The translations under genes and the position numbers were made by a program. From assembly GCF_030704535.1 (NCBI RefSeq), contig NC_081808.1:21703501-21767500 (forward strand): DNA of 64,000 bases. The letters run 5' to 3'. Positions 2,584 through 35,800 of this stretch are shown piece after piece (within the stretch, counting starts at the first letter, position 1; every line of letters begins with the position of its first letter). The stretch comes from Vitis vinifera (taxonomy: Eukaryota > Streptophyta > Magnoliopsida > Vitales > Vitaceae). The notes below the pieces were generated by a model. The model had not been told where the DNA came from. It saw nothing but the letters and a program-made list of their open reading frames with translations, and ran no database searches.

Positions 2584-2640
<57 letters not shown>

Positions 2641-2754: not shown

Positions 2755-3935
2755 TGGTATGTATAGGTATATTTATTGAATAGTTAACTAGCCATGTTGA
2801 ATATTTTCGGAATATATCATGAAAATTTTCATTCTTGTAGAGACACAACTAGTGGCGAAGCTAAGGACTTTTGTTAGGAGCGGCATGCAAAAAAAAAAAA
2901 TATTATAGTCATTATTTATAAACTGTAAGGTGATTAATGGTATTTTATATTATTATTAAAAACACTAAATAATTTTAAATATTAATTATAAGTATTAAGA
3001 ACAATTAAAAAAAAGGTTTTGGATTTTATATAAATAAATTATCAAGAATATTTAAAGGAAATTTTCAAAAGAATTGAAAAATAAAAAGAAAAATCATTAG
3101 AAAATTTCAATAATTTTAATAATTTTATTTTAGAGAATTTAATAATTTCTATTATAAATTTTAATATTTTTTTCAAGTGGAAGATGTGTGCGCCTTTAGA
3201 TCTTATTGTCTTATTATTTGATCTCAATTATTTATACCTTAGTCTCATTCTTTGTACTTATATTTAAAAGCTTAGATTTTTCCATGTATTTTCAAAAGTC
3301 GAGATTAAGATTTTAATGCATACTAAATTAATGCCTTATTTTTTTTTCTTTTTTTAAATAAGTAAATATAAGATAGTTGAAAATAAAGTCTTTTATTAAA
3401 AACTTATATTTTATATAAAAATGATTAAATTTTGATTAATTCATATTATTTTCTTACTTCCAGATAAAAATATAAGTATTTGGTAAGAAATTAACAAGTA
3501 TTATTTTTTATGATTTACTTAAACCAATCATAAAAAATAAGTATAATGAAAAGGATTGAATGCACTGGAAAAAATAAATATGAATAATATTAAAGAAGAT
3601 TTTATTTTATTTTTTAATTTTAGTATATTATTAGTAATTAATGTTCAATATAATTTTTTTGGCAATAATATTTAGTTACTATTATTTTTATTTTCAAAAA
3701 AAATTAAATTAAATTTATATTTTAGAGAGAGCAAAGTTTCTATTTTGGTTTTTGTTTTGCTAAAAAAAATTTATCATTAGGGGATTTTTTTTTTTTTTTT
3801 TAAGGAAAATTGAGGGAGGGCACATGCCTAGCCTTAGCTGGATCTCGTTAGTGGATACAACGGCTAGTAGAATGATAAAATACAACGGTCAAATAATTCG
3901 AATCTCTGATATATTTCAATTTCTCCCTCTTTCTC
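2755..3935 (+). repeat. Copy 1 of the ~1 kb segment upstream of POLLENLESS3-like
   Basis: From 'taggtatatttattgaatag' near 2765 onward this matches the block starting at 4254, with small indels. It ends in a poly-T run, 'aaggaaaattgaggg', 'caacggcta' and a short CT-rich leader. The same order precedes the POLLENLESS3-like genes at 5525-5650 and 23735-23880. It is a truncated copy of the gene's upstream region without the gene. The caulimovirid fragment begins directly after the CT-rich stretch. Confidence 0.75.
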
Positions 3936-3939
3936 TCTT

Positions 3940-4248
3940 CTTAGTATATATTGATGATGTTCTTATATTTTCAAATTCTATTGAACATCACTTCAAATAT
4001 TTAGAAACTTTTCAAAATATTGTTAGGGAAAACAGTTTAGTTGTCTTCGCCCTTAAGATTAAGTTATTTCAAACTAAGATTAAATTTCTAGGATTTGAAA
4101 TCTAACAAGGTACAATCAAACCAATTCAAAGGTCAATAAAGTTTTTTAGCAAATTTGCTGATGAAATTAAGGACAAAACTAACTTCAAAGGTTCTTAGGG
4201 AGTCTAAACTATATGTCAAACTTTTATCTAAACCTTATAACCACTATC
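3940..4248 (+). pseudogene. Endogenous caulimovirid (florendovirus-like) reverse transcriptase fragment
   Basis: The frame ending at 4105 contains the reverse-transcriptase catalytic motif YIDDVLIFS followed by a LFQTKIKFLG block, which is typical of plant caulimovirid polymerases rather than Ty3/gypsy elements. Related sequence continues past the stop in shifted frames to about 4248, so at least one nonsense or frameshift lesion is present. Only about 300 bp survive and no other viral domain is visible. The upstream codons of the open frame (from 3824) come from the host duplicate, not the virus. Assignment to florendoviruses, which are common in grape, is inference; a gypsy origin is the alternative. 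Confidence 0.6.
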
Positions 4249-4249
4249 A

Positions 4250-5440
4250 ATAGGTATATTTATTGAATAGTTAACTAGCCATGTTGAATATTTTCATAAT
4301 ATATCATGAAATTTTCATCACAGCGACACAACTAGTGGTGGAGCTAAAGATTTTTGTTAGAAGCCGCATGCAAGAAAAATATTATATTAGTCATTATTTA
4401 TAAATTGTAAGGTAATTAATGGTATTTTATATTATTATTAAAAAAAAACTGAATAATTTTAAATATTAATTATAATTATTAAGAACAATTTTAAAAAAGG
4501 TTTTGGATTTTATATAAATAAATTATCAAGAATATTTAAAGGAAATTTTCAAAAGAATTGAAAAATAAAAAGAAAAATCATTAGAAAATTTCAATAATTT
4601 TCATAATTTTATTTTAGAGAATTTAATAATTTCTATTATAAATTTTAATATTTTTTTCAGGTAGAAGATGTGTGCGCCTTTAGATCTCATTGTCTTTGAT
4701 CTTAGTTATTTATACCTTAGTCTCATTATTTGTACTTATATTTAAAAGTTTAGATTTTTCTATATATTTTCAAAAGTCGAGATTAAGAATTTCATGGATA
4801 CTAAACTAATAACTTAATTTTTTTCTTTTTTAAATAAGTAAATATAAGATAGTTGAAAATAAAGTCTTTTATTAAAAACTTTTATTTGATATAAAAAGGA
4901 TTAAATTTTGATTAACTCATATTATTTTCTTACTTCCAGAAAAAAATATAAGTATTTGGTAAAAAATTAACAAGTATTATTTTTTATGATTTAGTTAAAC
5001 CAATCATAAAAAATAAGTATAATAAAAAGGATCGAATGGATAGGAAGAAATAAATATGAATAATATTAAATAAGATTTCATTTTATTTTTTAATTTTAGT
5101 TAAATTTTAGTATATTATTAGTAATTAATGTTCATTTATATTTTAGAGAGAGCAAAGTTTCTATTTTGGTTTTTGTTTTGCTAAAAAAAATTTACGTTAG
5201 GGATTTTTTTTTTTTTTTAAAGGAAAAGTGAGGGGGGCACGTGGACACAATTGAGTGGGGCCTTAGCTGGATCCGCCAGTGGACGCAACGGCTAGTAAAT
5301 ATACAACGGTCGAATTCGAATCTCTGATATATTTCAATCTCTCCCTCTCTCTCTCTCTGTCTCACTCTCTCCCTCTATCTATCTCTCTCCCTCTCCCTCT
5401 CCCTCTCTGAAACCCCCTCGTAACTCTCTATCTCTCTGAA
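4250..5440 (+). repeat. Copy 2 of the segment upstream of POLLENLESS3-like
   Basis: Direct repeat of 2755-3935. It runs through the poly-T stretch (5205-5218), 'ggggggcacgtggacac' and 'caacggctag' into a CT microsatellite leader (5335-5450) that ends in 'gaaaccccctcgcaactc', the 5' leader of the POLLENLESS3-like gene. The gene itself is missing: the leader is joined directly to a DUF630 exon remnant at about 5455. Confidence 0.8.
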
Positions 5441-5454
5441 ACCCCCTCGCAACT

Positions 5455-5515
5455 CGCCCTCTCATCTACCGCATCCTCCTCCTCCTCCACCACCACAGCA
5501 GCCCTCTGAAATTCC
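5455..5515 (+). pseudogene. Remnant of DUF630/DUF632 exon 1 at a duplication junction
   Basis: The stretch starting 'ctcgccctctcatctaccgc' and ending 'cagcagccctctgaa' matches the proline-rich part of DUF630 exon 1 seen at about 23680-23735 and 33000-33060. It is followed, exactly as at 23735, by poly-T and 'aaggggggcacgtgg'. This is therefore a second instance of the unit junction, left behind when the rest of an earlier unit was deleted. Confidence 0.7.
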
Positions 5516-5766
5516 CTTTTTTTTTTTCAAGGGGGGCACGTGGGCACAATTGAGGGGGGGCCTTAGCTGGACACAACGGCTAGAAAAATACAACGGTCGA
5601 ATTCGAGTATGTTTTTCAATCTCTCCCTCTCTCTCTCTCCCTCTATCTATCTCTCTCTCCCTCTCCCTCTCCCTCTCTGAAACCCCCTCGCAACTCTCTC
5701 TCTCTCTCTCTCTCTCTGAAACCCCCTCGCAACTCCCCCCTTTCTCTCTCTCTGAAACCCCCGAAG

Positions 5767-7478
5767 ATGCAAGACATGTGGAATGTTCCCCCTGGTTTCA
5801 GGCCCAGCACATCTGCGCCTTCGTCTCCCGCAAAGCCAATTGGGGTGTCAAGAACTCGCTCAGACTCCTTTCATGTCACCCACAAAGTCCCTGTTGGCGA
5901 CACTCCTTATGTGAGAGCCAAAAAGGTTCAGGTAAGCTTCCGTTCTGGGAAATCTTGAAATTTGCCAACAAACCGAGGTTTCTTCTTTTGCGTGATTGAT
6001 CTCTGTTTGATGGGTTGGATTATGACTTTTGTTGCATCAGTTGGTTGACAAGGACCCGGAAAAGGCAATTCCGCTATTTTGGTCCGCCATTAATGCTGGA
6101 GATCGAGTGGATAGTGCGCTCAAGGACATGGCCATTGTGATGAAGCAACAGAACAGGGCTGAAGAAGCCATTGAGGCTATTAAATCGCTGCGAAGTCGTT
6201 GTTCAGATCAAGCCCAAGAGTCTCTTGATAATATCCTTCTGGATCTGTACAAGGTCCTGTCCTTGCGAAATTCCTTATCACTTGTTTGTATCTGGCTATT
6301 TAAGGATTATTGAGTACTGATTTTTGTCTTTTGGAAATTCGATTCGACAGAGATGCGGGAGATTGGATGATCAAATTGCACTTTTGAGGCACAAATTGTT
6401 CTTGATTCAACAAGGGATGGCTTTCAATGGGAAGCGCACCAAGACTGCCAGATCCCAAGGGAAAAAATTTCAGGTGTCCGTGGGACAAGAAGCGACTCGG
6501 TTACTGGTAAGCACACGGTTTTTCTGCTAGTTTCAGTCCTCTATCTCACTCCCTTAAACTCCATATTGAGACGAATTTCCATTTCAGGGGAACTTAGGAT
6601 GGGCATTGATGCAGCAGAACAACTATATCGAAGCAGAAGATGCCTACAGGCGGGCACTTTCCATGGCTCCAGATAATAACAAGATGTGCAATCTGGGTAT
6701 CTGCTTGATGAAGCAAGGGAGGATTCTGGAAGCCAAAGAAACCCTTAGAAGAGTGAAACCGGCTGTTGCAGATGGCCCGAGAGGTGTAGATTCCCACCTC
6801 AAAGCATTTGAGAGGGCACGGCAGATGCTGCTTGACCTTGAGTCTGAAATGTTGAATAAGGGAAGCGACCCTGTCGAGCAGAGTCGGCTCTTTGATGCCT
6901 TCCTCAGTTCTTCAGCGCTCTGGCAGCCTCAGCCTTGTAAGGACCAGCACACAACGAATACAATCAAATCTCAAGATGATTTTGGGGATGAGAACTTCGA
7001 CACCAACAGAGTCATGAAGGTTCTTTCTGGACAGAAGATTGCCAAACCAACGGCTGTTCATGCGAACTCACTCAACGTCGCGGCATTGCCATTCTACTCA
7101 TCAAAGACGACCAAGGACCCAATTGGAAAACCACTGCAGGAGTCCCTTAAGAGAACAAGATCAGGGCATGGTGCTAATTCGATAGGAGTGAATGAAACGG
7201 GGGCGTTCAGAAAGCCCTTAATGGAATCCATGGAACCAGAAAATAAGACTAGAAGGCGATCTCTTTCACCCGAAGAAAATGGGGACAAGTGGGCAGACTT
7301 TCTGCCAGACAGCAAGGAGTTTGAAGCGGCTCTTATTGCTGCAGTTCTGGGTTCAGCCACTGAAACAGGGAAGAAGACTGTGGAGACTGGAAACAGTTCT
7401 GGAATTTTACAGAATAAGATTGAGAGTAGGTTTAAAGTCTTTCAAGACATAACACTCTCTCTGAGCCCAAGAGCCTAA
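5767..7478 (+). CDS. POLLENLESS3-LIKE TPR protein, copy A
   Basis: Exons 5767-5931, 6041-6253, 6351-6506 and 6588-7478, all phase 0, give 474 aa. The N-terminus has the SRTRSDSFH and VPVGDTPYVRAK blocks of the MS5/TDM1/SDI family. Tetratricopeptide-type helices follow at about residues 55-250, with the conserved ALKDMAIVMKQQNRAEEAI, GNLGWALMQ and AYRRALSMAPDNNKMCNLG blocks. The C-terminus ends in the family's VFQDITLSLSPRA tail, which favours the POLLENLESS3-LIKE 2 branch over the shorter SDI proteins. Family members act in exit from meiosis in anthers (MS5/TDM1) or in the sulfur-starvation response (SDI1); which applies here is unknown. The leader is a CT microsatellite. It is convergent with the peroxidase pseudogene and differs from copy B at about 16 residues. 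Confidence 0.9.
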
Positions 7479-7948
7479 CCTCTCAATTAGTGTCAACTAA
7501 TTCAATTTAGTTTTTACAAGCTATAATAATATAGGTTTTAGGTTGGAGATGATCTTGTTCTCCTGGGCTCCTGTTCAAGCAGAAGGGGGGGAGGAGGGAG
7601 TACGCAGCTATGCAGAGAGTATGGTAGCAGTCCCTGCTGGGGTAGTAGCAGCAGTAGTTATAGTAGATGCAATTCATTAATTCTTGTCTACCTCTCAAAA
7701 TAAAGGGGGGCACACATCTGTAATAAAACATATTATTAGCTACATTTTGACTCAAGAAAATGAGGATCTTGCCTTGTTCTATATTGTGAATGCTGATTTC
7801 TCTTCCTCATTTCAAAGTGTATGGCATTTAATTTTGATCATATGAAGAGCTCCTAATTGTTTAGGAACATAGTTTTCTTCAATGAATCTTTGTGAGGTGA
7901 GATCTTCTAATAATACATGGTTTCTTCTTATACATGATCGATCCTGTT
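7479..7948. other. Convergent 3' regions of POLLENLESS3-like A and peroxidase A
   Basis: 470 bp between the stop of the plus-strand gene and the last exon of the minus-strand peroxidase. No coding potential is supported; the minus-strand frame at 7507-7755 is broken differently in the duplicate at 25757-26050. It presumably contains both 3' UTRs. Confidence 0.6.
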
Positions 7949-9508
7949 TTACTCCTGTTCCCTTTGACTTCTTCGTCTATAGTAGAAAGTAATGGCTATA
8001 GCAGTCGTCGCAAAAGCAACTCCTGCAGCAGTTTTTGCCATGGTTGAACTGTTCTTCACAGCTGTGATTACCCTGGAAAAGTCCAAATAGGAGGAACAAA
8101 CCTTAGCTCCGAAAGCTGCTTGTGGGATGCCGCATAATCTCTGAAGAAAGCCTCCAAATCCTGCCATGTACCAGAAATAATATGATAAGAAAATCAGCAA
8201 AGGGGGTTACAAGAGAGACTGCATGAGACTTACGTGAACACCCACGAAGGTTCCAGCATAAATACTACATTACCTGTTCATACAACCTAACATATTCTAG
8301 GAATTTACCTGTTCATACAACCTAACATATTCTAGGAATTTAGGATCCTTTATTAATGCTTGGTCTGTGGAAAATATAAACAATCGCCTGCCTCCCTGTT
8401 GAATCCTCGCCTGCAGCTGAAGAAGAAGGTTTCTGCTGTGAATACCCTGTTGGAGGGTTACTAGTTGTAAGAGACTTGGTTGATGATTTCATAAGCTCCC
8501 TGATTACAATATTAATCATAACATATAGCCATCATATATAATTGAAACATTACTGCATTTATATGCGTTCCAATCAATGAATTCTCAAATGAAACCTTAC
8601 TTGAAATACGAATTGTCGAACTTCCAGGGCTCCTCTGTCCACTTGCCATCAAAGCCTGGAACTTGCTTACGTGCCCCTCCCTACAACACCAAACCAAACA
8701 AAAACTACATGCATATGTGCGGGTGCTGAAAGAACTTTTTAAAGATAGCTGCAGATCTGTGGAGGAAGTTACCAATGTATGAGCTCCGGAGAGGGCCACA
8801 ATATCCTTGTCCTCAAGACCCATCCGGTTAAAGACTGACCTTAAATGTTCAGCACCTGCAACAAAATTTAATAATAGAAATATAAATTTTATGCTTGGTC
8901 TTATATGGGAAGTATAAGACAGCTCTGATTTCTGATGCATAACAACCAAGAAACAATTTGTAGAAGGAGCACAGCTGAAAAGCTAGAGAGGGGACCAAGG
9001 GGTGAAATGACAGAATTCGACAAACCATAAGGTTCAAGTCTCTATGCATTATCTGAGTTATAGAGCAGAATAGGAAAATGACTTCTTTTCCATAAACAAG
9101 GCCAGAGAGCATAAATAGTGGGGCCTCCAATAATCTCAACTACAACAACACCAGCAAGCTGACAAAACCCCAAAGGAGTCGGGAAAGTGACCACATCGGC
9201 ATCCAATTGCAAAGATGATACAAACCAGAGCTTGTTTTTATCTTAGCTTCTCAATGAATTCAAATTAAATCACAGAACAGTTGATTTCTGAAACAAGAGT
9301 CACCTGGTAAAGGTCAGCATATGTAATGCAATGATGCCTCCTTTTCACCTCCTCTGACATCAGAATAGAACCAGAGTCCATTAGAAAAAAAAAATTAGTA
9401 TTTCAATTTCAAGTAGGAAAAACTGAGAGTTATGGTGGGATGAAGTCCCAATCATACCATCTCGGCACTGAACCTCATTAAAAGGAGTTTGATTACAATA
9501 CAAGCAGA

Positions 9509-9587
9509 AAAAAAAAAAAAAAAAAGAAGAGGGGGGGGGGGGGGGGGGGGGGGGGGGGAGGGGGGGGGGGGGGAGGGGGGGGAGGGG
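9509..9587 (+). repeat. Poly-A then near-pure poly-G tract in peroxidase A intron 2
   Basis: An A run (about 9508-9525) is followed by about 57 bases of G interrupted by only a few A (9531-9587). The homologous place in unit 2 (27842-27860) is just a short A run and 'ggggaggg'. The open frames here encode only poly-Gly or poly-Pro and are not genes. Confidence 0.85.
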
Positions 9588-10195
9588 ACAAATCTGTTGC
9601 CAGTGTGCAAGGGCAAAAGGGAAAATGAATCTCACCACAAAGATCAACTGCCGTTTTCAAACCCCTATTTGCAGAATGATTAAGCTCTTGTGGGTTTCTA
9701 ATGGAGCCATTTGGGCCCCCTGTCTTTGTGAGAGCATCATAAGTGCCTGCATCATGAAACCTGCAAACAAAATGCTATTTAGCTTTTGATCATTAAACCC
9801 CTCATGCATTAAAGCTAAATTATTTCAAAATCCAATAGAGCCAGAATGCAAAAAGTCGGCTCACGATCCCCCTCGTACATGCCAAATATTAAGTCTCTGT
9901 TAATTTGAACCTTGCAAAACACACACACACACATGTATGAGTCGTTTTGTTCATGGCCTGTTCATGGCCATATTTCTGAAACACCAAAAGTTATAACACC
10001 TAGAAAAGCTTTTTTTTTTCTTTTTTCTAATTTTTCTGAAATTTTTATCTTATCTTCCCCATCTATTAAAATGCAACCACTTATGTTTTCTCCATCTCCC
10101 TTCAAAATGTCACTTCTAACATTTACTAAAAGAAATGAAACGCAGGGGAAAGAAAAAAGAAGCATAAATTAAACTTAAGAGACACTACGCTAGAC

Positions 10196-10200
10196 GGAGC
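10196..10200. repeat. Target site duplication GGAGC (left) of the copia element
   Basis: GGAGC abuts the LTR at 10201 and again follows the other LTR at 17180-17184. The intact sequence in unit 2 (near 28469-28473) has the motif once, so it is a true empty site. Confidence 0.92.
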
Positions 10201-10596
10201 TGTAAGATTATTACATGCAATATATATTTGATCCAAGTATATGAACATTTGCAACATGAATCAAATCTGAAAAAGACTTAGAATCGTCTACTTACCTCTA
10301 GCCATTGTTTTGAGTTACTGTAATCTGTGTAAGCCTTGATTTCCAAACTCTGATATCTCCTTTTAGATGGTGTATTTCTAAAGATAAAAAAAAGCTAAGA
10401 GACGAGTTCGGGACCATGAGAGATCTATATAACTGTGGCTTCCCATCATACCACGTTGTTTCTGATTTGCCACACTATGAGCAGTTTGTAGAACATGCTC
10501 CTTAACCGTAGGGACATAAGATGGTTGGTGGAGGACGTGGTCAGGTGTTGGACCACTTCAAAGTGGTGAATGTGTGTGAACATGTAGCTGATAACA
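10201..10596 (-). repeat. 3' LTR of the copia element
   Basis: 396 bp, starting TGTAAGATTATTACATGC and ending ATAACA on the plus strand. By eye it differs from the other LTR at about 30-35 positions (around 8-9 percent), largely transitions. Confidence 0.93.
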
Positions 10597-10612
10597 TTCT
10601 CCCACTTGATCC
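10597..10612 (-). promoter_or_regulatory. Polypurine tract of the copia element
   Basis: Reading the minus strand, GGATCAAGTGGGAGAA lies directly before the 3' LTR. This is the expected place and composition for the plus-strand priming site. Confidence 0.7.
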
Positions 10613-10885
10613 ACACCTTTAACCTAATGTCCTATCTTAGTCCATCAATTATCCGCATTAAGTAACAAATACATGAATCATGGCAATAAGTCCTCAATAT
10701 AATGAGTGTTACCTTCCATGTATTATAGTGTATTCATTCTTAACATTATAATTTATGTGGCAATATTACTTAATGAATAAACCCTATGTTCATTCTTGGT
10801 CCAATGAAGTTAAATTTTCTCAAAATTAAATAAAGGTGCACATCAATATGAGAAAATATCATAATAAGAGTTTGTACAATAGAAA

Positions 10886-11923
10886 CTACATAAGGGAACT
10901 AAGTCCCATGTTCACTACATGATCCTTGAATTTCAACAGTGGCATGCCCTTAGTCAAAGGATCAACGATCATCAATTCAGTGCTAATGTGCTCAATAACC
11001 ACTTTCTTTTCTTTAACACGTTCTCTTATGGCTAGATACTTAATGTCGATGTGCTTGCTTCGACTTCCACTTTTATTGTTTTTTGCCATAAAGACTGCAG
11101 CTGAATTGTTGCAATATATACTCAATGGGCTATATATTGAATCCATAACTCTAAGCCCGGAAATGAAACTCTTAAGCCATACACCATGTGAAGTAGCCTC
11201 AAAACAAGATATGAACTCAGCTTCCATAGTAGAAATAGCAGTTAAGGTCTGCTTAACGCTTCTCCAAGATATAGCTCCACCGGCCAATATAAAAATGTAT
11301 CCAGATGTTGATTTACGTGAATCAACACAGCTAGCAAAGTCTAAATCTGAGTAGCTAACAACCTCTAAATTGCTTGTTCGTCTGTACATAAGCTTGTAAT
11401 CTTTGGTTCCTTGAAGATATCTCATCACTTTATTTGTAGCTTTCCAGTGGTCCAAACCTAGGTTACTCTGATATCGTCCTAACATTCCAACAACTAATAT
11501 AATGTCCGGCCTTGTGCAGACCTGAGCATACATCAAACTTCAGATTGCAGAAGTATATGGAGTGTTCTTCATTTGTTCTCTCTCAAGATCGTTTTTCAGG
11601 CATTGGTTTAGATTAAACCTATCTCCCTTCGCTATAGGGGAAACACTAGGTGAACAATCCTTCATCTGAAATCTCTCTAAAACTTTATTGATATAGGTCT
11701 CCTGAGACAGACCTAAGATTCCTCGAAATCTGTCTCTATGCATCTTAATGTTAATGACATAAGATGCCTCACCCATATCCTTCATGTCAAAATTTTTAGA
11801 GAAGAATTGTTTCACCTCATGAAGTAAACCTTTATCATTGGTTGCAAATAAGATGTCATCCACATATAAAACAAGAAAACAAACTTTACTCCCACTGACC
11901 TTAAGATATATGCATTGATCCAT
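10886..11923 (-). pseudogene. copia RT C-terminal part and RNase H (broken)
   Basis: The frame 11540-11923 holds the YVDD catalytic box of copia reverse transcriptase (LYVDDILFATND). The frame 10886-11536 holds copia RNase H with TSGYIFILAGGAISW, STMEAEF and the terminal DPLTKGMP block. The two are separated by a stop at the 11536-11540 boundary. Confidence 0.88.
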
Positions 11924-12031
11924 AACATTTTCTACAAAACCAAATGAAGAAATTTTGTTATGGAATTTTAAATATCATTGGCGGGATGCTTGTTTTAAAC
12001 CATATATGAATTTCTTAAGCTTACAAACCAA

Positions 12032-12433
12032 TTACTCACCATCACTAGAGGGGAATCCTTCAGGTTGTTTCATGTAAACCTCCTCTTCTAACTCTCCATT
12101 AAGAAATGTTGTTTTCACATCCGTTTGTTGCAATTCCAAATCAAAGTGGGCTACTAATGCCAATATAATGTGCAAGGAATCTTTCTTAGATACAAGAGAA
12201 AAGGTTTCCATGTAATCGACTCCTTCTTTCTGAGTGAACCATTTTGCAACAAGTCTGACCTTGTATCTCTCAATGTTGCTTAATGAGTCTTTCTTTGTCT
12301 TAAAACCCCATTTACAACCAATGGCTTTTGCACCATTAGGCAACTCAACAAGGCCCCAAACATTGTTGTACCTCATGGAACTCATCTCATCTTTCATGGC
12401 ATTGTACCACAATTCTAATTTTTTGCAACTCAT
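12032..12433 (-). pseudogene. copia reverse transcriptase N-terminal part (broken)
   Basis: Contains W-x-L-V-E-L-P, the KWGFKTKKD block, ARLVAK-like and DVKTTFLNGELEEEVYMKQPEGF. These are the standard N-terminal motifs of copia RT. A stop-containing gap of about 110 bp separates it from the YVDD frame. Confidence 0.88.
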
Positions 12434-12850
12434 GGCTTGTGAAAAAAATTTGGGATCATTTTCAGCTCCTCTATTATAGTCCCAGATTCTTGTAGATACA
12501 CTACATAATCACTAGGAATTGCTAACTTCTTAGGTTAATTAGACCTTCTTAAGGTTGCACCAATATCTTTTAAGGAAGTATGAAGTTCAACTTGTTGTTC
12601 AGAAGTATCAAGAAACTCCTGATCAACTTGATCTACTGAAATGTTGTCAACAACTTGTGGAACTTCAATAATTGGTTGAACTTCAGCGATTGTTCATTCT
12701 ACACCCATTTGAACTTGAGGGTGTTATGAACAACAAACAATCTATCTCTTGAAGTGGAAAGTTGAGACTCTATATGATCAATATCAGAAACTATGTTTCT
12801 AAATTGATCGCTCCCACTGACCAAGTCATATTCAAGAATTTAGCATTTCT

Positions 12851-13840
12851 TCATTCCACAATCCTAGTGTTGTGAGATGGATAGTAAAATCTGTATCCCT
12901 TAGACTTTTCAGCATATCCAATGAAATACCCACTAATAGTCCTTGGGTCCAGTTTTTTCTCTTGTGGATTATAAATTCTCACTTCAGACGAGCATCCCCA
13001 AATGCGCATTTGTCGCAAACTCGGTTTCCAACCTTTCCATAACTCAAATGGCGTCTTTGGGACAACCTTGGTTGGAACTCGGTTTAATATATATATTGTT
13101 GTCTTAAGTGCTTCAGTCCACAAGAATTTAGGAAGTTTTGAGCTGCTAAGCATACTCCTCACCATGTCTAATAAAGTTCAGTTTCTTCTTTCTATTACAC
13201 CATTTTGGTCTGGAAAACCAGACATGGTGTATTGGGCAACAATCCCATGCTCTTGAATAAACTTTGCAAATGGCCCAGGTGCTTGTCCATCTTCCAAGTA
13301 TCTACCATAATATTCTCTACCTCTATCTGATCTCACAATCTTAATTTGTTTATCACGTTGTTTCTATACTTCTGCCTTGAAAACCTTAAAGGCATCTAAT
13401 GCTTCATTTTTGTTATGAAGTATGTAAAGATACATGTATCGTGAGAAATCATCTATGAAAGAGATGAAGTATTTATGACCATGAGAGTCCATGTCAAGAC
13501 TACATATATCAGTATGTATGATTTCTAATATGACGGAACTCCTTGTAGAACCTCTTTTTGACTTGTTGGTTTGCTTTCCCTTAATGCAGTCCACACAAGT
13601 CTCAAAGTCAGTAAAATCTAGGATACTAAGTACCCCATCATTCACCAACCTTTTGATTCTATCTATCGAGATATGACCTAATCTTCGGTGCCACAATATA
13701 GGGGAATCCTCATTAACAACACATCTCTTAATGCCAATTTGGACATGTAATGAATTATAAGTGGTATTATTTTGTAAGAATATGCAATAAAGACCATCAG
13801 ACAAAATATCATTCCCAACACAATCAGATTTATAAATCAA
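12851..13840 (-). pseudogene. copia integrase region (broken)
   Basis: The frame 13364-13840 carries the GAG-pre-integrase zinc motif (LWHRRLGH...CVDCIKGKQ) and the first catalytic Asp block IIHTDIC plus SFIDDFSRYMYLY. The frame 12851-13165 carries the C-terminal integrase block (ILNRVPTK, PFELWKGWKPSL, RIWGC, GYFIGYAEKSKGYRFY). The region between is disrupted by stops. Confidence 0.9.
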
Positions 13841-13852
13841 ACTGAAAGATGT

Positions 13853-14270
13853 TTATGAAAAATGAAAGGAATATCCAAACGGTACAACTCTAGAAACTGA
13901 AATCAAGTTTTGTGGGAAACTTGGTACATAAAAGGTCATTTTCAATTCCAAAACAAAACCACCATTTAAAGTTAAATAACATGTCCCTATTGCTTCCACA
14001 TGCGAGCACATCTTGTTTCCAAATAATATGAATTGTTCATTTCTCACTGGTTTCCTTAGGTTTTGCATTCCCTACAAGGAATTTGAAATGTGGATTGTAG
14101 ATCCAGAATCAATCCACCATGTGTTGGTATTTACATTAACCATATTAGATTCATAACAAACAAATGAGGTAGGGTTACTTTTCTTCTCAAATCATTTCTG
14201 AAATTTCAGACATTTCTTCTTGACGTGTCCTTTCCTTTTACAGAAAAAACATTTTTCGTCTTTCTTAATG
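13853..14270 (-). pseudogene. copia protease and nucleocapsid zinc knuckle (broken)
   Basis: Minus strand: a CCHC zinc knuckle (CFFCKRKGHVKKKC) at about 14200-14260 and an aspartic protease active site WWIDSGSTIHIS at about 14085-14125. A stop follows a few codons later. The rest of the protease, ending in FYVPSFPQNLISVSRV, is open at 13853-14068. Confidence 0.82.
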
Positions 14271-14326
14271 TCAGATTTGGGAGGAACTTGTTTCCCTTTC
14301 TAATCGGCTTGAGATTTTCCTTTCTT

Positions 14327-14695: not shown

Positions 14696-14699
14696 TAAT

Positions 14700-25697: not shown

Positions 25698-26166
25698 CCT
25701 CTCAATTAGTGTCAACTAATTCAATTTAGTTTTTACAAGCTATAATAATATAGGTTTTAGGTTGGAGATGATCTTGTTCTCCTGGGCTCCTGTTCAAGCA
25801 GAAGGGGGGGGGGGGGGGGGAGAGAGGAGTACGCAGCTATGCAGAGAGTATGGTAGCAGTCCCTGCTGGGGTAGTAGCAGCAGTAGTTATAGTAGATGCA
25901 ATTCATTAATTCTTGTCCACCTCTCAAAATAAAGGGGGGCACACATCTGTAATAAAACATATGATGATGTTCATTAGCTACATTTTGACTCAAGAAAATG
26001 AGGATCTTGCCTTGTTCTATATTGTATGGCATTCCTATTGTGTATGGCATTTAATTTTGATCATATGAGGAGCTCCTAATTGTTTAGGAACATAGTTTTC
26101 TTCAATGAATCTTTGTGGGATCTTCTTATTATACATGGTTTCTTCTTATACATGATCGATCCTGTT
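25698..26166. other. Convergent 3' regions of POLLENLESS3-like B and the peroxidase
   Basis: About 470 bp with a G run at 25804-25820. No gene is supported. It matches 7479-7948 with small indels. Confidence 0.6.
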
Positions 26167-28619
26167 TTACTCCTCTTTCCTTTGACTTCTTTGTCTATAG
26201 TAGAAAGTAATGGCTATAGCAGTTGTCGCAAAAGCAACTCCTGCAGCAGTTTTTGCCATGGTTGAACTGTTCTTCACAGCTGTGATTACCCTGGAAGTCC
26301 ATGTAGGTGGAACAAACCCTAGCTCCGAAAGCTTCTTGTGGGATGCCGCATAATCTCTGAAGAAAGCCTCCTCATCCTGCCATGTACCAGAAATATGATA
26401 AGAAAAACAGTAAAGGGTTACAAGAGACTGCATGAGACTATGTGAACATCCACGAAGGTTCCAGCAAAATACTACATTACCTGTTCATACAACATAACAT
26501 ATTCTAGGAATTTAGGATCCTTTATTAATGCTTGGTCTGTGGAAAATATAAACAATCGCCTCCCTGTTGAATCCTCGCCCGCAGCTGAAGAAGAAGGTTT
26601 CTGCTGTGAATACCCTGTTGGAGGGTTACTAGGTGTAGGAAACTTGGTTGATGATTTCAAAAGCTCCCTGATTACAATATTAATCATAACATATAGCCAT
26701 CATATATAATTGAAACATTGCTGCATTTATATGCGTTCCAATCAATGAATTCTCAAATGAAACCTTACTTGAAATACGAATTGTCGAACTTCCAGGGCTC
26801 CTCTGTCCACTTGCCATCAAAGCCTGAAACTTGCTTATGTGCCCCTCCCTACAACACCAAACCAAACAAAAACTACATGCATATTTGTGGATGCTGAAAG
26901 AACTTTTTAAAGATAGCTGCAGATCTGTGGAGGAAGTTACCAATGTATGACCTCCGGAGAGGGCCACAATATCCTTGTCCTCAAGACCCATCCGGTTAAA
27001 GACCGACCTTAAATGGTCAGCACCTGCAACAAAATTTAATAAGAGTAATGTAAATTTTCTGCTTGGTCTTATATGGGAAGTATAAGAGAGCTCTGATTTC
27101 TGATGCATAACAACCAAGAAACAATTTGTAGAAGGAGCACAGCTGAAAAGCTAGAGAGGGGACCAAGGGGTGAAATGACAGAATTCGACAAACGATAAGG
27201 TTCAAGTCTCTATGCATTATCTGTGAGTTATAGAGCAGAATAGGAAAATGACTTCTTTTCCATAAACAAGGCCAGAGAGCATAAAGAAAACAGAATGGGA
27301 ACCTTTGTTAGCATCTGGGAGGAGCCCTTCTTTTGGTGAAGACAAAGAGTCCTGGTTGAAAAACAGGGGGGAAAAAATTAGGAGTAATATTTGAGAAAGG
27401 TGATCAAAAGCTTCCTCCATGAACCAACCTGTCTACCAGGGACGAAGTGAATAGTGGGGCCTCCAGTAACCTCAACTGCAACAACACCAGCAAGCTGACA
27501 AAACCCCAAAGGAGTCAGGAAAGCGACCACACCGGCATCCACTTGCAAAGATGATGCAAACCAGAGCTTGTTTTTATCCTTAGCTTCTCAATGAATTCAA
27601 ATTAAATCACAGAACAGTTAATTTCTGAAACAAGAGTCACCTGGTAAAGGTCAGCATATGTAATGCAAGGATGCTTCCTTTTCACCTTCTCTGACATCAG
27701 AGCAGAACCAGAGCCCATTAGAAGAAAAAAATAGTATTTCAATTTCAAGTAGGAAAAACTGAGAGTTGTGGTGGGATGAAGTCCCAATCATACTATCTCG
27801 GCACTGAACCTCATTAAAAGGAGTCTGATTACAATACAAGCAAAAAAAAAAAAAGGGGAGGGACAAATCTTTTGCCAGTGTGCAAGGGCAAAAGGGAAAA
27901 TGAATCTCACCGCAAAGATCAACTGCCGTTTCCAAACCCCTATTTGCAGAATGATTAAGCTCTTGTGGGTTTCTGATGGAGCCATTTGGGCCCCCTGTCT
28001 TTGTGAGAGCATCATAAGTGCCTGCATCATGAAACCTGCAAACAAAATGCTATTTAGCTTCCGATCATTAAACCCTCATGCATTAAAGCTAAATTACTTT
28101 AAAATCCAATAGAGCCAGAATGCAAAAAATCAGCTCACGATCCTCCCCCCCATACATGCCAAATACTAAGTCTCCGTTAATTTGAACCTTGCAAAAAACA
28201 CACACACATGTATGAATCGTTTTGTTCATGGCCTGTTCATGGCCGTATTTCTGACACGCCATAAGTCATAACACCTAGAAAAGCCTTTTTCTTTTTTTTC
28301 CTAATTTTTCTGAAATTTTCATCTTATCTTCCCCGTCTATTGAAATGCAACCACTTATGTTTTCTCCCCTCCCTTCGAAATGTCAGTTCTAACATTTACT
28401 AAATGAAATGAAATGCAGGGAAAATGAAAAAGAAGCATAAATTAAACTTAAGGGACACTACGCTAGACGGAGCATCATGGGTGCACAGTTTTTGCTGGAA
28501 ATGAGAGCACGGAGGTATCTACGAGCCCTTTCGATTTCTTTGTAGTATTCTGCATTTACAACTAGTGGTGCTGGAGTTGGTGCTGGTGCAGAGGCTGAGG
28601 TTGAGGCTTGGACTTCCAT
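26167..28619 (-). CDS. Peroxisomal-type ascorbate peroxidase-like protein
   Basis: Nine exons on the minus strand: 28619-28462, 28035-27911, 27690-27641, 27494-27429, 27351-27303, 27023-26941, 26848-26769, 26667-26481 and 26376-26167. They join in phase to 335 aa. Class I haem peroxidase landmarks are [17 protein letters not shown] (distal Arg and His), [24 protein letters not shown], the proximal His in LSGGHTLG, GKW, and the buried Asp in FDNSYF. The C-terminus adds a hydrophobic segment ([20 protein letters not shown]) and basic residues, as in APX3/APX5 anchored in peroxisome membranes. Oddities: the distal Trp is Phe, the Arg that binds ascorbate (R172 in pea APX) is replaced by Val in [12 protein letters not shown], and an extra ~30-residue loop lies before [13 protein letters not shown]. 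It removes peroxide, but the reductant is uncertain. Confidence 0.9.
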
Positions 28620-31205
28620 GGGAGCTCACCCACCCTGCAAAGAATTGAAGAGGAAAAAAAGAAGGAATGATGATAGTGGAGGGAGGACCCTTGATTAGTT
28701 TGTCTTTATAGAGAGGGAATCACAACGAAAGAGATGGGTGGAAGAAAAGGGGTGGGGGAGAGAGGAAGCAAAGGATTGATTTTGCATGGAAAGGGATACG
28801 ATTCCAATTATAAACATGCAAGGGACTACAACTGCTGATTGCCTTCTTCTTCTTCGTCTTCTTCTTCTTCAAAATCTTCTTATCTCTTGAGGTATGAAGA
28901 TTAAAAAACCTAAATAGATAATAACTTTCATGTATATAGTTTAAAATAATTTTTTTATTTAAAAGAAAAACACATTATTTAAAATTATTATTTTTAAATT
29001 TTTAAAAATATCTTTGAGAGGCTTTTTTTTTTTTGCTAAATAATAAAAACTTGACCCTGTGATTTAAAAACACTTCTAAAAACCGAAAAATGTTTTTGAA
29101 AAATTATAACATTGTTTGGTTGTTGTTTTCTTAAAAAAAAAAATTAAAAACAAAATAAAATTAAAAATCATTTTTAAAGAATAAATAAAAATTATTTTCA
29201 CTTATTTTAAATACAAAAGGAAAATGTAAATAAATAAGAAAAAATTAAAATAAAAAACCATATAAACAGATGAATGTATGTATGAAATAAAAAAATCATT
29301 CATTTATATTTTTAAAAATTAAATTTTATTTATTTTTAAATTTATTCAAAATAAAATAGTATTAACAGTTATTAATTTTAAATTGTTGTTACTATTATTA
29401 TTATTATTTATTTCCAACAAAATAAATCAATGATGCTTTTATGAAAATGTTAATATTCATTATTTATAATATTTATAAAAAAAATATGATTGTATTATAA
29501 TATTACTATTCATATTTTATTAAATATATTTATTTTTTATTTTTTGTAATTACAAAATTGTTTTTATTTTTAATAAGACTTGAATTAAAATTAGTTTACA
29601 TGATATAAATTGAATTTATAGTTTTTTTTTACAAAATTAAAAAAAAATTAAAACAACTTATTTAAATAAGATTTTTGTTTTTGTTTAAAAAAAACTTTTT
29701 TTAAAACAACTTGAATCTAACGAACCAAAACACTTCATTCTCTTAAAGTTAAATTAAATTCTATTTATAGGTAAAGTTTTATTTTTATTGAAATAATTTT
29801 CTTTTTTACATTCTCCAAAAAAAATAAAATATTTATTCTCACTCCTCATTCCTATATAAAAAAAATGGATTTAACGTCAAATTTTAGAAGAAAGCTTGAA
29901 AGCCATAAAATTGAGGGGCTTTTTGACTGGTTATATAAGGAAAAGCTTTAAGTATGTCATCCTCCATGGCGTCTTCTTCAACCAAAAGACTCATGAGTCA
30001 TGACTCCTTCCAAAACACGATTGAAGGTATCCAAGGAAATGTTTGAAAGAGTCCTACGAAAAAGTCATTAATAAGTACTTTTGCAAAGCCCTTTCAACCA
30101 TGATACAAAATTTTTCAAGTCTCTAATATTTTAAATTAAAAATTTTCTTCATATATTAACAACTATTGACTCAAAATAACAATAATTCTTTTCTCCTATT
30201 GTAAAAGTTGTATTACTGCTATTGAATCATAGCTTATATTTTATCCTAAATTTCAAAATGTCACTATTAAATCATAGTGTATCCTTTATCATAAACTATT
30301 GAATTTCCTAATACATCTTGTTTTTTTTAAAAAAAAATAAATTTTGATAATTAAAAAAAAGGAATTCACAAATTAAATCCCCTACCAAAACAATTCATAA
30401 ACTTATGCTTCTCATCCATGTAGATATCATGACTATGATTTTAAATTTTTTTTAGATGATTAAAATTATAATTAGTAACTACGATAACTTTATCGTAACT
30501 AGCCATGATGATAACTTTATGTAGCTAGCCACTGTGATAACCTTATCGTAGTCACAAACCACTGTTTTATGTTTATAAAAAAAAAACTCTTAGGTCTTTA
30601 TACATACTTGAAATGCACTAATTCAAAAAATAATTTTGTTGAAAAATTAAGGTTCATTTGGTTATGTTTTCTAAAACTTGTTTTTAAAAATTACTTTTTA
30701 TTCTTTAACTTTATAGTTTTTAAAAACAAGTTTCATAAAACATAACCAAATGGACCCATGTTTTCATTTTGTTTTTAAAAATTGATGAAAACAACTTCTA
30801 TTTGTTCTCTAAAAATTGTTCTCTATTTCACTTTATTTTCAAAAATTATTTTCAAAAACCAACAACAAAACAGTATTAAAAAATTTTAAAAATAGTTTTA
30901 TATCTTTAAAACAAAAAAATTGTTTTTAAATCATATAATCAAACAGACTTTTAACTTCATAAATTTTGTTTTTCAAATGAATTATTTTTGCTCAAAACTC
31001 ATTTTCTCAAATTTGAAAAAAAAATAAAATTATATGAAGGATATTAAAATTCTCAAGTCATATGTACTACTTTAGGGTGATTTTACACATAGAATATAAG
31101 TTTAGTTTGTGAACAAAATGAAAACCCATTTAATATTTCTTTTTCATGGCATGCACATGTTGAATGTGGAATCACAAGCCTGTAAATTTTTTAACTTTAC
31201 CTAAA
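28620..31205. repeat. AT-rich spacer of unit 2 with empty sites
   Basis: Upstream region of the peroxidase, then AT-rich DNA collinear with 17331-18812 and 21553-22640. The Mutator-like foldback is absent at about 30006-30020, which gives the empty site. No gene is seen; several short palindromes (for example 30651-30757) look like MITE remnants. Confidence 0.65.
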
Positions 31206-31885
31206 AATCCAATGGTGTGTGATGAATATTTTAGTAATAAGGTATGATGCGGACCATGTGGTAATGGTGGCCCCTTGCTCAATTGTTTTAGATTTTGTTA
31301 GCTAAGTTCCAAGTTACCATTGTGGAACATATTTGGAACTACCACATGGTGCCCCCATTGATTTCACCTTCAAAAGGCTGCAACTTTTGATTTTCTTATT
31401 GTTGCTTTAGCTTAATGCTTTATAATCAATTACGAGATTATATATCATCTATTATTAGATTACTTCAATTTAAGTTAATCTATCAAAATCCGATACCTTA
31501 TGTCGGATTAGGAAAAAAAACTTATAACACATAACTTTTTTTAACATTTTAGATGTCTATGTGACTCAAAATAGACGATATCTATTATCAAAATATAATA
31601 TTTTTTTAGTACATAATATACTAGCACGAATAATTAAATTTAAACTATTAAATACAAAGAGAAATCACAATTTAAATACGAAACGACACCAAAATATAAA
31701 AATTAAAAAATTAAAACCCGAGTAAAATAAAATGAGATCAAGACTAAAAAACCAATCTTTTATCTTCTTTTGTCAAATACAGATACATACTAAAAATGTA
31801 ACATAAAAATTTAACAAATTTAGGTATCATAATAGCACCCATGTGGACCTGAGAATTTTAAGATTCTCTATAAATTAAGAAAAGA
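31206..31885. other. Segment present only in unit 2
   Basis: About 680 bp with no counterpart in unit 1, where 'ctttacctaa' runs straight into 'gaagaaattgttacc'. No terminal repeats or coding sequence were recognised, so insertion here and deletion in unit 1 are both possible. Confidence 0.6.
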
Positions 31886-32681
31886 AGAAGAACAAATTGT
31901 TACCTTTTGGGATATTTTTAGGTGGGAAGTTGTAAATTGCAAAGTTTGAGAAGGGTATAGTTGTCCAAAAGGGAGGATATTTTTGGCAGTTTCCCCTGGA
32001 ATGCTCTTCTCTGACAGATTGATTCCAGTGCCACAGTTCCCTGAAAAAAGCAAGCAAATTTATTAATATCCCAAAACACCCCAAATTTCAATTGGCAGAT
32101 TAAAATTGTAGACAATGAAACGGTGTCGTTTCAGCGGGGTCCATGCAAAACGCTTTTACAAAAAATCCTTGTCTGCGTAAAATCTGGTTTTTTGATACAA
32201 CACATTTATATCTTCCATTTTTGAAATATTACCTTCCTAAGGCTGTATTGGCCGTTGAAATGCATAGTTACCTAAACACCCCTCCCTTCCTTCCTTATTA
32301 GTTCCCCTGTTCTCCGCACGTCCCAAGGGCATGCCGTGAATAAAGGCACATTCTAGGGGCATTTTGGTCATAATACTTTATTTGATAAAATTACTCCACT
32401 GGGCACCCTGCCCAACGTTCATTTGTCTGCTTACATCTCAAAACTGCCGCTCCGTTGCTTTCCTCCTCACAACCACAGAGTGGGGGGAGAGAAGAGAGGA
32501 GATGAAACGGTGTCGTTTGTTTGGGAGGAAGCGAGGTTAAAGATTCTGAGACCCAAAAGAAGTGAAGGAGAAAAACGGTGGCTTTTTGAGACCCGCCATC
32601 GATGAAAGCTTCAGAAGCTTTACCAAAGTGAGAGAACGCAGAAAACGTTTTGGTTGTTGTTTTGTTTTTTGAAAATCAGAA
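31886..32681 (+). promoter_or_regulatory. Promoter and leader of the DUF630/DUF632 gene
   Basis: Non-coding DNA upstream of the ATG at 32682, duplicated at 22641-23406. AAACGGTGTCGTTT occurs at 32118-32131 and 32505-32518. The retained similarity of this region to its duplicate fits regulatory or leader sequence. Confidence 0.55.
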
Positions 32682-32864
32682 ATGGGTTGTTGTTACTCGA
32701 GAATAGAGAGAGAAGAGATGGTTTCAAGGTGTAAGGCGAGGAAGAGATACATGAAGCAGTTTGTGAAGGCGAGGCAAGCCCTGTCTGCAGCCCACAGTAT
32801 GTATATCAGATCCCTGCGTGGCACTGGCTCTGCTCTCCTTCAGTTTGCCACCGCCGAGACCAAT

Positions 32865-32895
<31 letters not shown>

Positions 32896-35800
32896 ATCTC
32901 ACACCGATTCCACCCTCTCCGCCGCCACAGCAGCCCTCTCCTCCGCCTCCACCGCCGCCCATGAGTCCCAGCTCCGATACGTGGACATCCATCACAGCCT
33001 CGCCCTCTCATCTACCGCCTCCGCCTCCTCCTCCTCCTCCGCCGCCCCCGCCCCCGGCGCAGTCCAGCTGGGACTTCTGGGATCCGTTCGTGCCGTCTTC
33101 GTCAAGGTCCGTGACGGAGGAGGAGTGGGAAGCTACGACGATGGCGTCGGAAGCCCCTGCCACGACCGCCGTCTCCGCCAGCGTCACGGCTCCGCCTTCG
33201 GTGGTCAGTGGGTTCTCTAAGGACACATCGAGCGAGCTTGCTATGGTGGTGTCAAGAAACAGTAAAGATCTCGCTGAGATCGTCAAAGAGGTCGACGACT
33301 ACTTTCTTAAAGCCGCCGACGCCGGTAGCGAAGTCTCATTACTCTTAGAAATTCCAAGGTCCACTTTCTCCAATCAGACTGGAGGTATTATTTTTCACAA
33401 GTTTATTCTATGATCATGGGTTTGCTTTAGATTTTCCTTTACTCTTGTTTGGCTGATGAGGAAGAACAAAAGAAAATGAGGAATGTTAATTTTGTCTTAT
33501 GTTGTCTTGGCGTTAGGCACAATTGAGTGGACCCTTTTGTTTGGTAGCCCAGAAATAAATGAAAATTTGAAACACAAGTAATGGGTTTTGATTCTGTTGT
33601 TTACAGGTAAGGTTTATAGCTGTGGAAAGAGTTCGAATCCATTATGGTGTCCATGGGCTTCGAATTCGAAATTGAATGGGTTTGGGAGACTGTGTGAAGA
33701 GATGGTTGTTACTGATATAGCTGGTGGGGGTATTATCAGTGGTAGTAGCAGTCACTGTTCTACTGTGGAGAGGCTATATGCTTGGGAGAAGAAACTGTTC
33801 CAAGAGGTTAAGGTAATATAATCCTAAATTTTCAATTCCACCACCCCATAAAGAAATTCTCTCTCTGATGTCTTGTTTCTTTGCTTGCGTTTTGAAGAAT
33901 GCTGAGAGTATAAAGATAGAGCATGAGAAATGTGTAGCCCAGCTGAGGAAGTTGGAGGTAAAGAGGGCTGCTGACTATGTGAAGACTGAGAAAACCAAGA
34001 AAGAGGTTGAAAAGTTGGAGTCTAGGATGATGGTTGCATCCCAGGCCATTGAAACTACCTCTACTGAAATCATCAAATTAAGGGAGTCAGAGCTTTACCC
34101 ACAACTCCTTGACATCGTAAAAGGGTTAGTCTTCTTCTCACTCCCACCACCACCACCTTCACATGAATGTATTATTCATTTCTTATTTTTTTCATGTGGG
34201 TTAGTGAAATTCCACTGCAGAAACAAGACCATATAAAGAATGTGCACCACATAGAAAGGGAATACATTGCCTTCTTATGCATTAAAGCGCTCAAGCCAAG
34301 TCAGAATTATCAAGTGTCTAAGGTTAACAGCTTGAGCTTTCTGAACATTTGGCCTAAACCATATAAGAAATTGCTATACAAAGGCCTCAATGGAGACCCT
34401 CTATATTGGCCTAAACCGTGAAAAGAGCCACCCCCACTCCTGCACAGAGCAGCAGGTGATGGAGATTTGAAAGATGAGACTTTTTTTTTTTTTTTTTTTT
34501 CTGAACCATTGGTTATCAGAACTAGGGTTACCCAAATCAATGTCTAAAATATAAGGTATTATTTAGGTTGGGTCTATTTTCCCAGTATCCTGTTTGGTTC
34601 TCTAGGGGGTTTGAATTTATGCACAGTGAAGCAGATATACAACTTACCCACTCTGAGACTTGGTTGCTTCCTAAAGTCAAATTCAACTTTATTGTATTGG
34701 GATCAGATGGTATGCCATGGGCAATGGTAGTACAAGCAGTCAAATTTGCTTTTGACTGCTTTTACTGTTTGATTTCATGGCTTTTGTTTGCTTTTGTTGC
34801 AAAGACTTACTGAGCCCCGACCGTGCAACAGTTGAGTAATCCATTTGGGGGGGTGGGTTGGGGCTATCCCCAACCTTCAATTGGGCTTCCCTTTAGTGTG
34901 AGGAACCATCTTTTGTGAACCCTCTTTGCTTTAATGTCTTCCAAAAGGAGGCAATCATGTGGTTCTCGTTCTGACTGTACCATCTATGATGGGGTCCATC
35001 AGATTGGATAAGGTACATGGCCAACTGGGTAAGGTGGGGACTATAGATGTACTGGGTTGGTATTCAACTGGACTATGGTCTACAGTAATGCTTTACTAGG
35101 GAATTTAAAGTCTATTTACTTCTCTCTTGACAGTAGAGAAGCTAGGGCAGGGTTTTGTGGCTGGTTGTTTTAACTTTTAAGCCATTTGTCATGTTTTGAT
35201 TTTCTAGACAAGCTTGATGAACTGTGCTCGATCCTCATTGCTACATTTATTTTCTTAGGATCATTATATTTATGGAAGTTATTTTCCACTCTTACTGATT
35301 TTACTTTCATTGCAGATCGATGAGCATGTGGAGAAGCATGTACGAGTGCCACCAGGTCCAAATGCACATAGTTCAGCAGCTCAAATATCTCAATGCTATC
35401 CCATCAACTGAGCCCACATCCGAGATTCACAGGCAATCAACTCTCCAGCTCGAGCTTGAAGTCCAGCAGTGGCACTCAACCTTTTGCAGCCTAGTAAAAA
35501 CCCAACGAGACTACATCCAAGCACTTACGGGCTGGCTCCGTCTTAGCCTTTTTCAGTTCAGCAAAAACCCACTATCCAAAACCAGACAGGAGTCCATGAT
35601 TTACTCCCTTTGTGAAGAATGGCACCTTGCACTTGACCGGGTTCCAGACAAAGTGGCATCTGAAGGGATAAAGAGCTTGTTAACAGTAATTCATGCCATT
35701 GTAGTTCAACAAGCTGACGAGCAAAAACAAAAGAAGAGGTCAGAATCTGCATTTAAAGATCTTGAGAAGAAACTGGTTGAGCTTAGAGCACTGGAATGCA

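Follow-up and report, generated by a model that had tools for sequence, protein, structure and literature searches.

A head-to-tail gene array in grapevine carrying a repeated join between a coding exon and a transposon end

Genes and repeats at the locus

The window analysed is a stretch of 64,000 nucleotides from Vitis vinifera. It holds two units in head-to-tail arrangement, A (~5.5–23.7 kb) and B (~23.7–33.0 kb), preceded by a repeated left segment. The features are as follows.

2587..2640, no strand: (TA)27 simple repeat (TRF)
2763..3938, +: left-segment copy 1, with 87 bases of flank, a dispersed, probably hAT-like element (~2850–3853, bordered by GACACAAC/GATACAAC) and the first part of the CT-rich leader (self-BLAST, genome search)
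3939..4249, +: decayed reverse-transcriptase (RT) fragment, 311 bases, at the joint between the left-segment copies (Pfam RVT_1)
4250..5452, +: left-segment copy 2, with the element (~4333–5281, bordered by GACACAAC/GACGCAAC) and the leader that belonged to a putative vanished unit 0 (self-BLAST, genome search)
5453..5511, +: DUF630 exon 1 stub of the putative unit 0, including CCACCACAGCAGCCCTCT at 5490–5507 (junction X; sequence, junction alignment, genome search)
5517..23735, +: unit A, with element end and leader, PL3-like gene, dead ascorbate peroxidase (APX), spacer and truncated DUF630 (self-BLAST, unit alignment)
5767..7478, +: POLLENLESS 3-LIKE 2 (PL3) gene copy A, an open frame of 474 aa in 4 exons (gene model, protein comparison)
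7950..17330, −: APX pseudogene copy A, with Copia in exon 1, a 164-base deletion across exons 4–5 and frame changes in late exons (self-BLAST, comparison with B)
10201..17179, −: Copia LTR retrotransposon with 91.4% identity between its LTRs and GGAGC as 5-base target duplication (self-BLAST, empty site in unit B)
18822..21543, no strand: long terminal inverted-repeat element, arms ~980 bases, 93%, 9-base target duplication (8/9 equal; self-BLAST, absent from unit B)
23407..23735, +: truncated DUF630 exon 1 with a 1-base frame change, ending in the duplicate at 23715–23732 before the poly-T (junction Y; sequence)
23736..33043, +: unit B (self-BLAST, unit alignment)
23990..25697, +: PL3 gene copy B, 4 exons coding for 474 aa, the protein matching VitviT2T_005700 at 100% identity (gene model, protein comparison)
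26167..28619, −: APX-like gene copy B, modelled in 9 exons with an open frame of 335 aa (gene model)
32682..36096, +: DUF630/DUF632 gene, apparently complete, running from the right end of unit B into unduplicated flank (Pfam)

Units A and B are collinear by self-BLAST (5453–9115 with 23675–27285 at 93%, and further blocks up to 23719 with 33043), which bears out the head-to-tail array of the original prediction. Introns are kept in both PL3 copies, so the copying took place at the DNA level. Direct collinear units with introns, separated by the same join (X and Y), are those of a tandem segmental duplication, and the intron loss of a processed retrocopy is not seen.

The two PL3 proteins are distinguished by 16 diagnostic residues, and both types are present in other records, with the A type recovered in P0098 (13/16 diagnostic residues) and P0105 (13/14). 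This gene family includes the meiosis-exit protein TDM1/MS5. The apparently complete DUF630/DUF632 gene matches Pfam DUF630 in exon 1 (E 5.2e-23) and DUF632 in the last exon (E 1.7e-45). The predicted net outcome is confirmed: the locus has one PL3-like gene more, and that gene is open, together with a dead peroxidase and a truncated DUF630 gene. As a refinement, the peroxidase is ascorbate peroxidase-like and dead in unit A only. PMC12854088 gives eight APX genes for grape and assigns four to the APX-3/5 subgroup.

A join between a coding exon and a transposon end

DUF630 exon 1, a poly-T tract and the PL3 leader are joined at 5453–5545 (X) and again at 23675–23761 (Y), and the two sites align across the entire join, from exon through poly-T to leader. 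Exact matches to the word AAGGGGGGCACGTGG lie at 5529 and 23747 in the window, and the whole genome (495.6 Mb, 21 contigs) has just these two. With up to 2 mismatches it has 3 matches in the window, where 0.05 were expected by chance; the third, at 5230, is the native element end. A genome-wide DNA search with the DUF630 5' region and junction (22655–23760) gave three matches, namely Y, the X stub and the gene in its complete form (3/3 candidates scored), and no copy of the composite join besides X and Y was found in the genome-wide search. The prediction of a shared junction near 5515 and 23735, with a breakpoint inside a coding exon, therefore holds: the breakpoint falls in DUF630 exon 1, and the self-comparison that had been proposed as a check shows the junction at both sites.

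The left segments are mostly transposon. The left repeat (2763–3938 with 4250–5356, 84%) is a dispersed element that has been locally duplicated with its flanks, and it is probably a nonautonomous hAT-like transposon, judged by its terminal inverted repeats and 8-base flanking repeats (GACACAAC/GACGCAAC and GACACAAC/GATACAAC, each 7/8 equal); a clear target duplication was not seen in the 4 related genome copies examined. The poly-T and "aaggggggcacgtgg" are part of this transposon's end, the poly-T being an internal tract of the element and not PL3 leader proper. The poly-T does not stem from a processed gene, since introns are kept and the tract belongs to the upstream element. The original prediction had read the left segments as truncated copies of PL3 upstream DNA; the repeats exist, but they are mostly interspersed repeat and not specific to PL3.

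At the first join, the two parents (the exon of the complete DUF630 gene and the native element end) share at most one or two bases as read from the sequence, and no extended homology between the parent breakpoints was seen there, so that the breakpoint homology of non-allelic homologous recombination is lacking for the first duplication. The join instead carries an 18-base near-duplicate of 32922–32939, with one difference, templated from 110–120 bases back in the same DUF630 exon. In the window this duplicate, CCACCACAGCAGCCCTCT, is found only at X (5490–5507), at Y (23715–23732) and at its exon source (0 expected), and its alignment score of 37 exceeds the maximum of 31 among 2000 base shuffles. 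Because of this short exon-internal duplicate, the first join is attributed to template switching or end joining, to which the sequence points, rather than to recombination between repeats.

Evidence for a probable third unit and rival histories

The most plausible reading of the ~60-base DUF630 stub left of unit A is that it was once the end of a third unit, since collapsed. P0023, an ENA open reading frame of 141 aa with 3 member sequences that comes from another assembly, has the entire DUF630 exon 1 followed by an X-like join; the record is of protein only and may derive from another Vitis species. Two of its features agree with X and not Y, the Glu-Ile-Pro that precedes the Phe run and the terminal ...ARGHN, whereas P0091 and P0217 are Y-type. 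By raw local score it fits a Y reading frame (137) better than any single X frame (124 at best), since the frame of X shifts after the poly-T, and the length of its Pro run is not that of X. Compared with the complete exon, P0023 has 10/112 differences, Y 3/88 (Fisher p 0.15) and P0217 1/86 (p 0.025), so that a greater age of the P0023 exon is no more than suggested. P0023 is the strongest support for a third unit. With the stub at X, it makes the predicted existence of at least three units probable. The fourth unit, which had been put forward as possible, is not upheld, as no DUF630/leader junction is present in the leftmost repeats, which belong to a separate local duplication of a transposon with its flanks.

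Exchange between units is also suggested by a mosaic in their divergence. Non-coding transversion divergence between A and B is 1.5% on the left (35/2348), 4.1% in the middle (80/1964) and 1.5% on the right (14/916), with both ends differing from the middle (Fisher p 1.8e-7 and 1.8e-4). This mosaic is the pattern expected from exchange, and the unit ends look partly homogenised, although constraint near genes could also produce it.

The same mosaic would fit a history in which only two units ever existed and the X stub arose by gene conversion, leader A having been repaired from Y with ~60 bases of DUF630 and the poly-T join, ending at a short CT-rich leader match. The shortness of the stub and the CTC common to its left join and the leader agree with such an event, but P0023 has the X-like join with the whole exon upstream of it, and private changes separate X from Y (a His codon, ATTCCC), so any copying between them was not recent. 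We regard this history as unlikely.

Far less probable is the mechanism offered in the original prediction, that recombination between poly-T and CT-rich leader repeats produced three to four full units, the two leftmost segments being their stubs. The leader sequence does occur four times. The left segments, however, are joined by the RT fragment and not by a DUF630 join, and they share a left boundary (2763/4250) that is absent from units A and B; the CT tracts lie away from the DUF630/poly-T joins, and neither the one or two bases shared by the parents nor the exon-internal duplicate fits such a substrate. Tandem repeats commonly cause misassembly, but the concern that repeats were collapsed or misjoined here is reduced, and such an artefact is scarcely credible, given a genome in 21 contigs, units up to 15% different in 300-column blocks, the presence of the Y-junction gene in the annotation of a second V. 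vinifera record (P0217, CK203_005980) and A-type PL3 in P0098 and P0105.

Proposed history and its meaning

The reading with a third, collapsed unit is preferred, and the scenario as a whole is considered likely. A three-gene segment comprising PL3, APX on the opposite strand and the start of DUF630/DUF632 would have been tandemly duplicated, with one breakpoint in DUF630 exon 1 and the other in the poly-T of the hAT-like element that lies immediately upstream of PL3. This first join, at which hardly any sequence is shared, would have been made by template switching or end joining, and exchange between homologous units may then have yielded at least a third unit with the same join. In this haplotype the leftmost unit would later have been deleted from leader to DUF630 exon 1, leaving the ~60-base stub at X, a step that P0023 supports.

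The Copia element, which breaks APX exon 1, and the inverted-repeat element would have entered unit A afterwards. Copia has LTRs, a 5-base target duplication, RVT_2 and GAG pre-integrase. Both insertions probably postdate the duplication, being placed there because of the target duplications in A and the empty site in B. Copia LTR divergence (K2P 0.092) is nominally higher than the A/B divergence in the two flanks beside it (0.060 and 0.081), an order that nominally runs opposite to this timing; it is close to that of two long spacers (0.087, 0.090), and by transversions the LTRs and flanks do not differ significantly (8/396 vs 15/1060, p 0.48).

The RT fragment between the left segments is probably pararetroviral (caulimovirid). 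Its RVT_1 match (E 9.8e-6) lies below the curated Pfam cut-off, and 39 other matching places were reported genome-wide. RVT_1 was found in both of the two relatives examined and RT_RNaseH in one, with no Pfam match in 2 downstream ORFs; no movement-protein domain was matched by Pfam in 2 upstream ORFs of one relative (part of one copy examined), and none of 57 pattern matches from a viral-contig scan with a 48-aa RT piece was confirmed as a relative. In PMC4241990 and PMC10377300, endogenous caulimovirid fragments are proposed as filler DNA near (TA)n. The present case resembles these in being from grapevine and in having an RT fragment at a rearrangement joint and a (TA)27 tract nearby, which lies ~120 bases to the left of left-segment copy 1. 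Here, however, only 311 bases are present, inside a local duplication, the virus family is putative, and the (TA)27 lies 1.3 kb left of the fragment, beyond the 1-kb distance counted in PMC4241990.

Collinear head-to-tail units, kept introns, decay of one gene copy and a join common to successive copies are as in birth-and-death tandem duplication with unequal exchange. Unlike such arrays, the first join lies at non-homologous sites, an exon and a transposon, and one unit was seemingly reduced to a ~60-base stub. FoSTeS and MMBIR are replication template-switch duplications, and the minimal shared sequence and short, nearby-templated duplicate at the join resemble them; the join here would be a single two-step one, with end joining with filler as the alternative. 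No paper naming this locus was found in a literature search.

The locus is a clear but ordinary example of plant gene gain and loss. Grapes may, tentatively, segregate for copy number here, some haplotypes carrying at least three PL3–APX–DUF630 units, in an array founded by an exon–transposon template-switch join and flanked by a local duplication with pararetroviral filler. Expansion and collapse of the array can be read in order, from founding join through copies and a near-erased unit to later transposons; a third unit may leave only ~60 bases, and the locus offers a concrete copy-number marker for the PL3 gene family.

Array layout and the copied join

Self-BLAST resolved two head-to-tail units, A (~5.5-23.7 kb) and B (23.7-33.04 kb), each a copy of a POLLENLESS 3-LIKE 2 (PL3), ascorbate peroxidase-like (APX) and DUF630/DUF632 (DUF630) gene block. 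Searches were extended to the grape genome (495.6 Mb in 21 contigs, with the window at C4:21703501-21767500, contig C4 probably being chromosome 4). The common join of a DUF630 exon to a poly-T and PL3 leader, which had been proposed at two sites, was confirmed by self-BLAST and genome search at both (X and Y). Genome-wide, AAGGGGGGCACGTGG has two exact occurrences, and the DUF630 5' region together with the join DNA has three matches, namely Y, the complete gene and the X stub.

Joins and repeats in the window
2587-2640: (TA)27, 120 bases from the duplicated segment and 1.3 kb from the reverse-transcriptase fragment
~2850-3853: copy of a probably hAT-like element, ending in terminal inverted repeats and flanked by 8-base repeats
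3939-4249: decayed reverse transcriptase (RT) joining the two left-segment copies, 311 bases (RVT_1, E 9.8e-6, below the Pfam curated cut-off)
~4333-5281: copy of a probably hAT-like element, ending in terminal inverted repeats and flanked by 8-base repeats
5453-5545: join X, DUF630 exon 1 / poly-T / leader
23675-23761: join Y, DUF630 exon 1 / poly-T / leader

Unit A is longer than unit B because it contains two insertions, one of Copia and one of a long-inverted-repeat element, each with a target duplication and an empty site in unit B. Unit B holds a 680-base insertion (31208-31887), whose flanking alignment blocks share 5 bases in unit A.

Origin of the first join

The complete DUF630 exon 1 encodes a proline run followed by AQSSWDFWDPF. 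At X and Y the sequence coding for AQSSWDFWDPF is replaced by CCACCACAGCAGCCCTCT, after which come GAA and then the poly-T. CCACCACAGCAGCCCTCT is an 18-base near-copy, with one difference, of a stretch of the exon itself ~110-120 bases upstream (32922-32939); with one mismatch allowed, the window contains it at X, at Y and at this source and nowhere else, with none expected. The poly-T and GGGGCACGTGG are native to the element upstream of PL3. This upstream segment is a dispersed repeat, with at least 64 matching pieces genome-wide (40 of 125 candidates scored) and two places in the window; among four related copies examined, one clearly kept the same right end and none had a clear target duplication. 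The unit therefore has its left breakpoint inside a transposon, ~60-80 bases short of the transposon's end, and its right one inside a coding exon, DUF630 exon 1. On reading the sequence, the parents of the first join have at most a base or two in common there, which leaves the suggested role of the poly-T and CT-rich repeats as recombination substrate unsupported; the join fits template switching or end joining rather than recombination between repeats.

Number of units and the left segments

As X and Y derive from a single join, the sequence to the left of A should once have been a unit with a truncated DUF630 gene at its end. A leader assigned to this presumed unit, ~60 bases of DUF630 exon and join X lie there in that order. 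The protein database provided an independent test: P0023, an ENA record of 141 aa with three member sequences, begins at the DUF630 start codon, takes in exon 1 and ends in an X-like join (EIP, a Phe run and a terminal ARGHN). Y-type joins are found in two further protein records, P0091 and P0217, the latter from V. vinifera. No full DUF630 exon 1 was found at an X join in the searched grape genome, and P0023 is therefore from another haplotype or species. As a protein record alone, with a raw score higher against a Y frame (137) than against the best single X frame (124), it provides good but not final support for a third unit. Gene conversion in a two-unit array could also have left the X stub, but such an origin is improbable given that in P0023 the whole of exon 1 leads into the X-like join. 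A history of at least three units, as originally predicted, is likely from the copied join and P0023.

The fourth unit, also envisaged as possible, is unsupported. The left-segment copies (2763-3938 and 4250-5356; K2P 0.087) have a common left boundary missing from units A and B and are joined by the RT fragment; our reading is of a local duplication distinct from the array, in which the RT fragment served as repair filler. This fragment has at least 39 further genome matches, some partial, at 77-89% identity (40 of 248 candidates scored). Of two relatives examined, both contained RT and one RNase H; no integrase hit was obtained in the two downstream ORFs, and two upstream ORFs of one copy gave no match to a movement protein. 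One report (PMC4241990) describes florendovirus loci in V. vinifera, often close to (TA)n repeats, and proposes florendovirus sequence as possible filler DNA in break repair, a proposal also made in a review (PMC10377300).

Gene copies and divergence between units

Both PL3 copies are open, so the predicted net gain of one PL3-like gene stands; they differ at 16 of 474 residues (dN 0.0146, dS 0.042). The unit-B protein matches V. vinifera VitviT2T_005700 at 100% identity across 474 aa. P0098, an A-type PL3 protein record with 13 of the 16 A-type residues, is recorded on a 1778-base contig, which would imply a spliced A-type transcript if the ORF was called without splicing. In the V. rotundifolia record P0101, 7 A-type and 7 B-type residues occupy the 14 scored sites; given this even division, separation of the copies, or their homogenisation, may be more recent than the V. 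rotundifolia split.

The APX gene of unit A is dead and the DUF630 copy at Y truncated, both as anticipated; the latter also carries a frameshift. The right-hand DUF630/DUF632 gene keeps both domains. The unit-B APX gene (26167-28619) is open over nine modelled exons. When it is aligned with solved APX structures, Phe stands where these have the Trp of RLAWH, and Val replaces the Arg preceding SGF, two positions of importance in the active site; from its sequence the gene may encode an APX-like protein with altered activity. A 57-base G-rich run (9531-9587) in an APX intron of unit A is almost missing in unit B. P0043, a Hibiscus syriacus DUF632 protein, carries the source name 'putative L-ascorbate peroxidase 3-like', and this name alone hints that the APX and DUF630/632 genes adjoin in that species too.

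Counted over non-coding aligned columns, transversions between A and B were 35/2348 (left), 80/1964 (middle) and 14/916 (right), a clustering whose level was reached in 0 of 5000 permutations. Exchange or conversion at the ends of the units accounts for this pattern, with a possible contribution from constraint near genes. Around the Copia element in unit A (9114-17700), transitions are biased to A/T (43 vs 16, p 6e-4), as would be expected with methylation spreading from the element. Copia LTR divergence is nominally greater than A/B divergence beside the insertion, not significantly so by transversions, an order that nominally runs against a simple clock.

Elsewhere in the window, 55309-56463 and 61986-63495 form a second, separate tandem pair, of SAM-dependent carboxyl methyltransferase (Methyltransf_7) genes, with two main aligned blocks 83-84% identical. 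Minus-strand reading frames at 36942-38224, perhaps transposase-derived, contain a Myb/SANT-like domain and match At2g29880_C slightly below its cut-off. Among further minus-strand frames at 44707-47729, that at 46961-47356 weakly matches clamp-loader lid and RAD24-like domains, below cut-off, and is perhaps a RAD17-type checkpoint gene.

The PL3-APX-DUF630 array is a well-preserved example of an already known kind of event.
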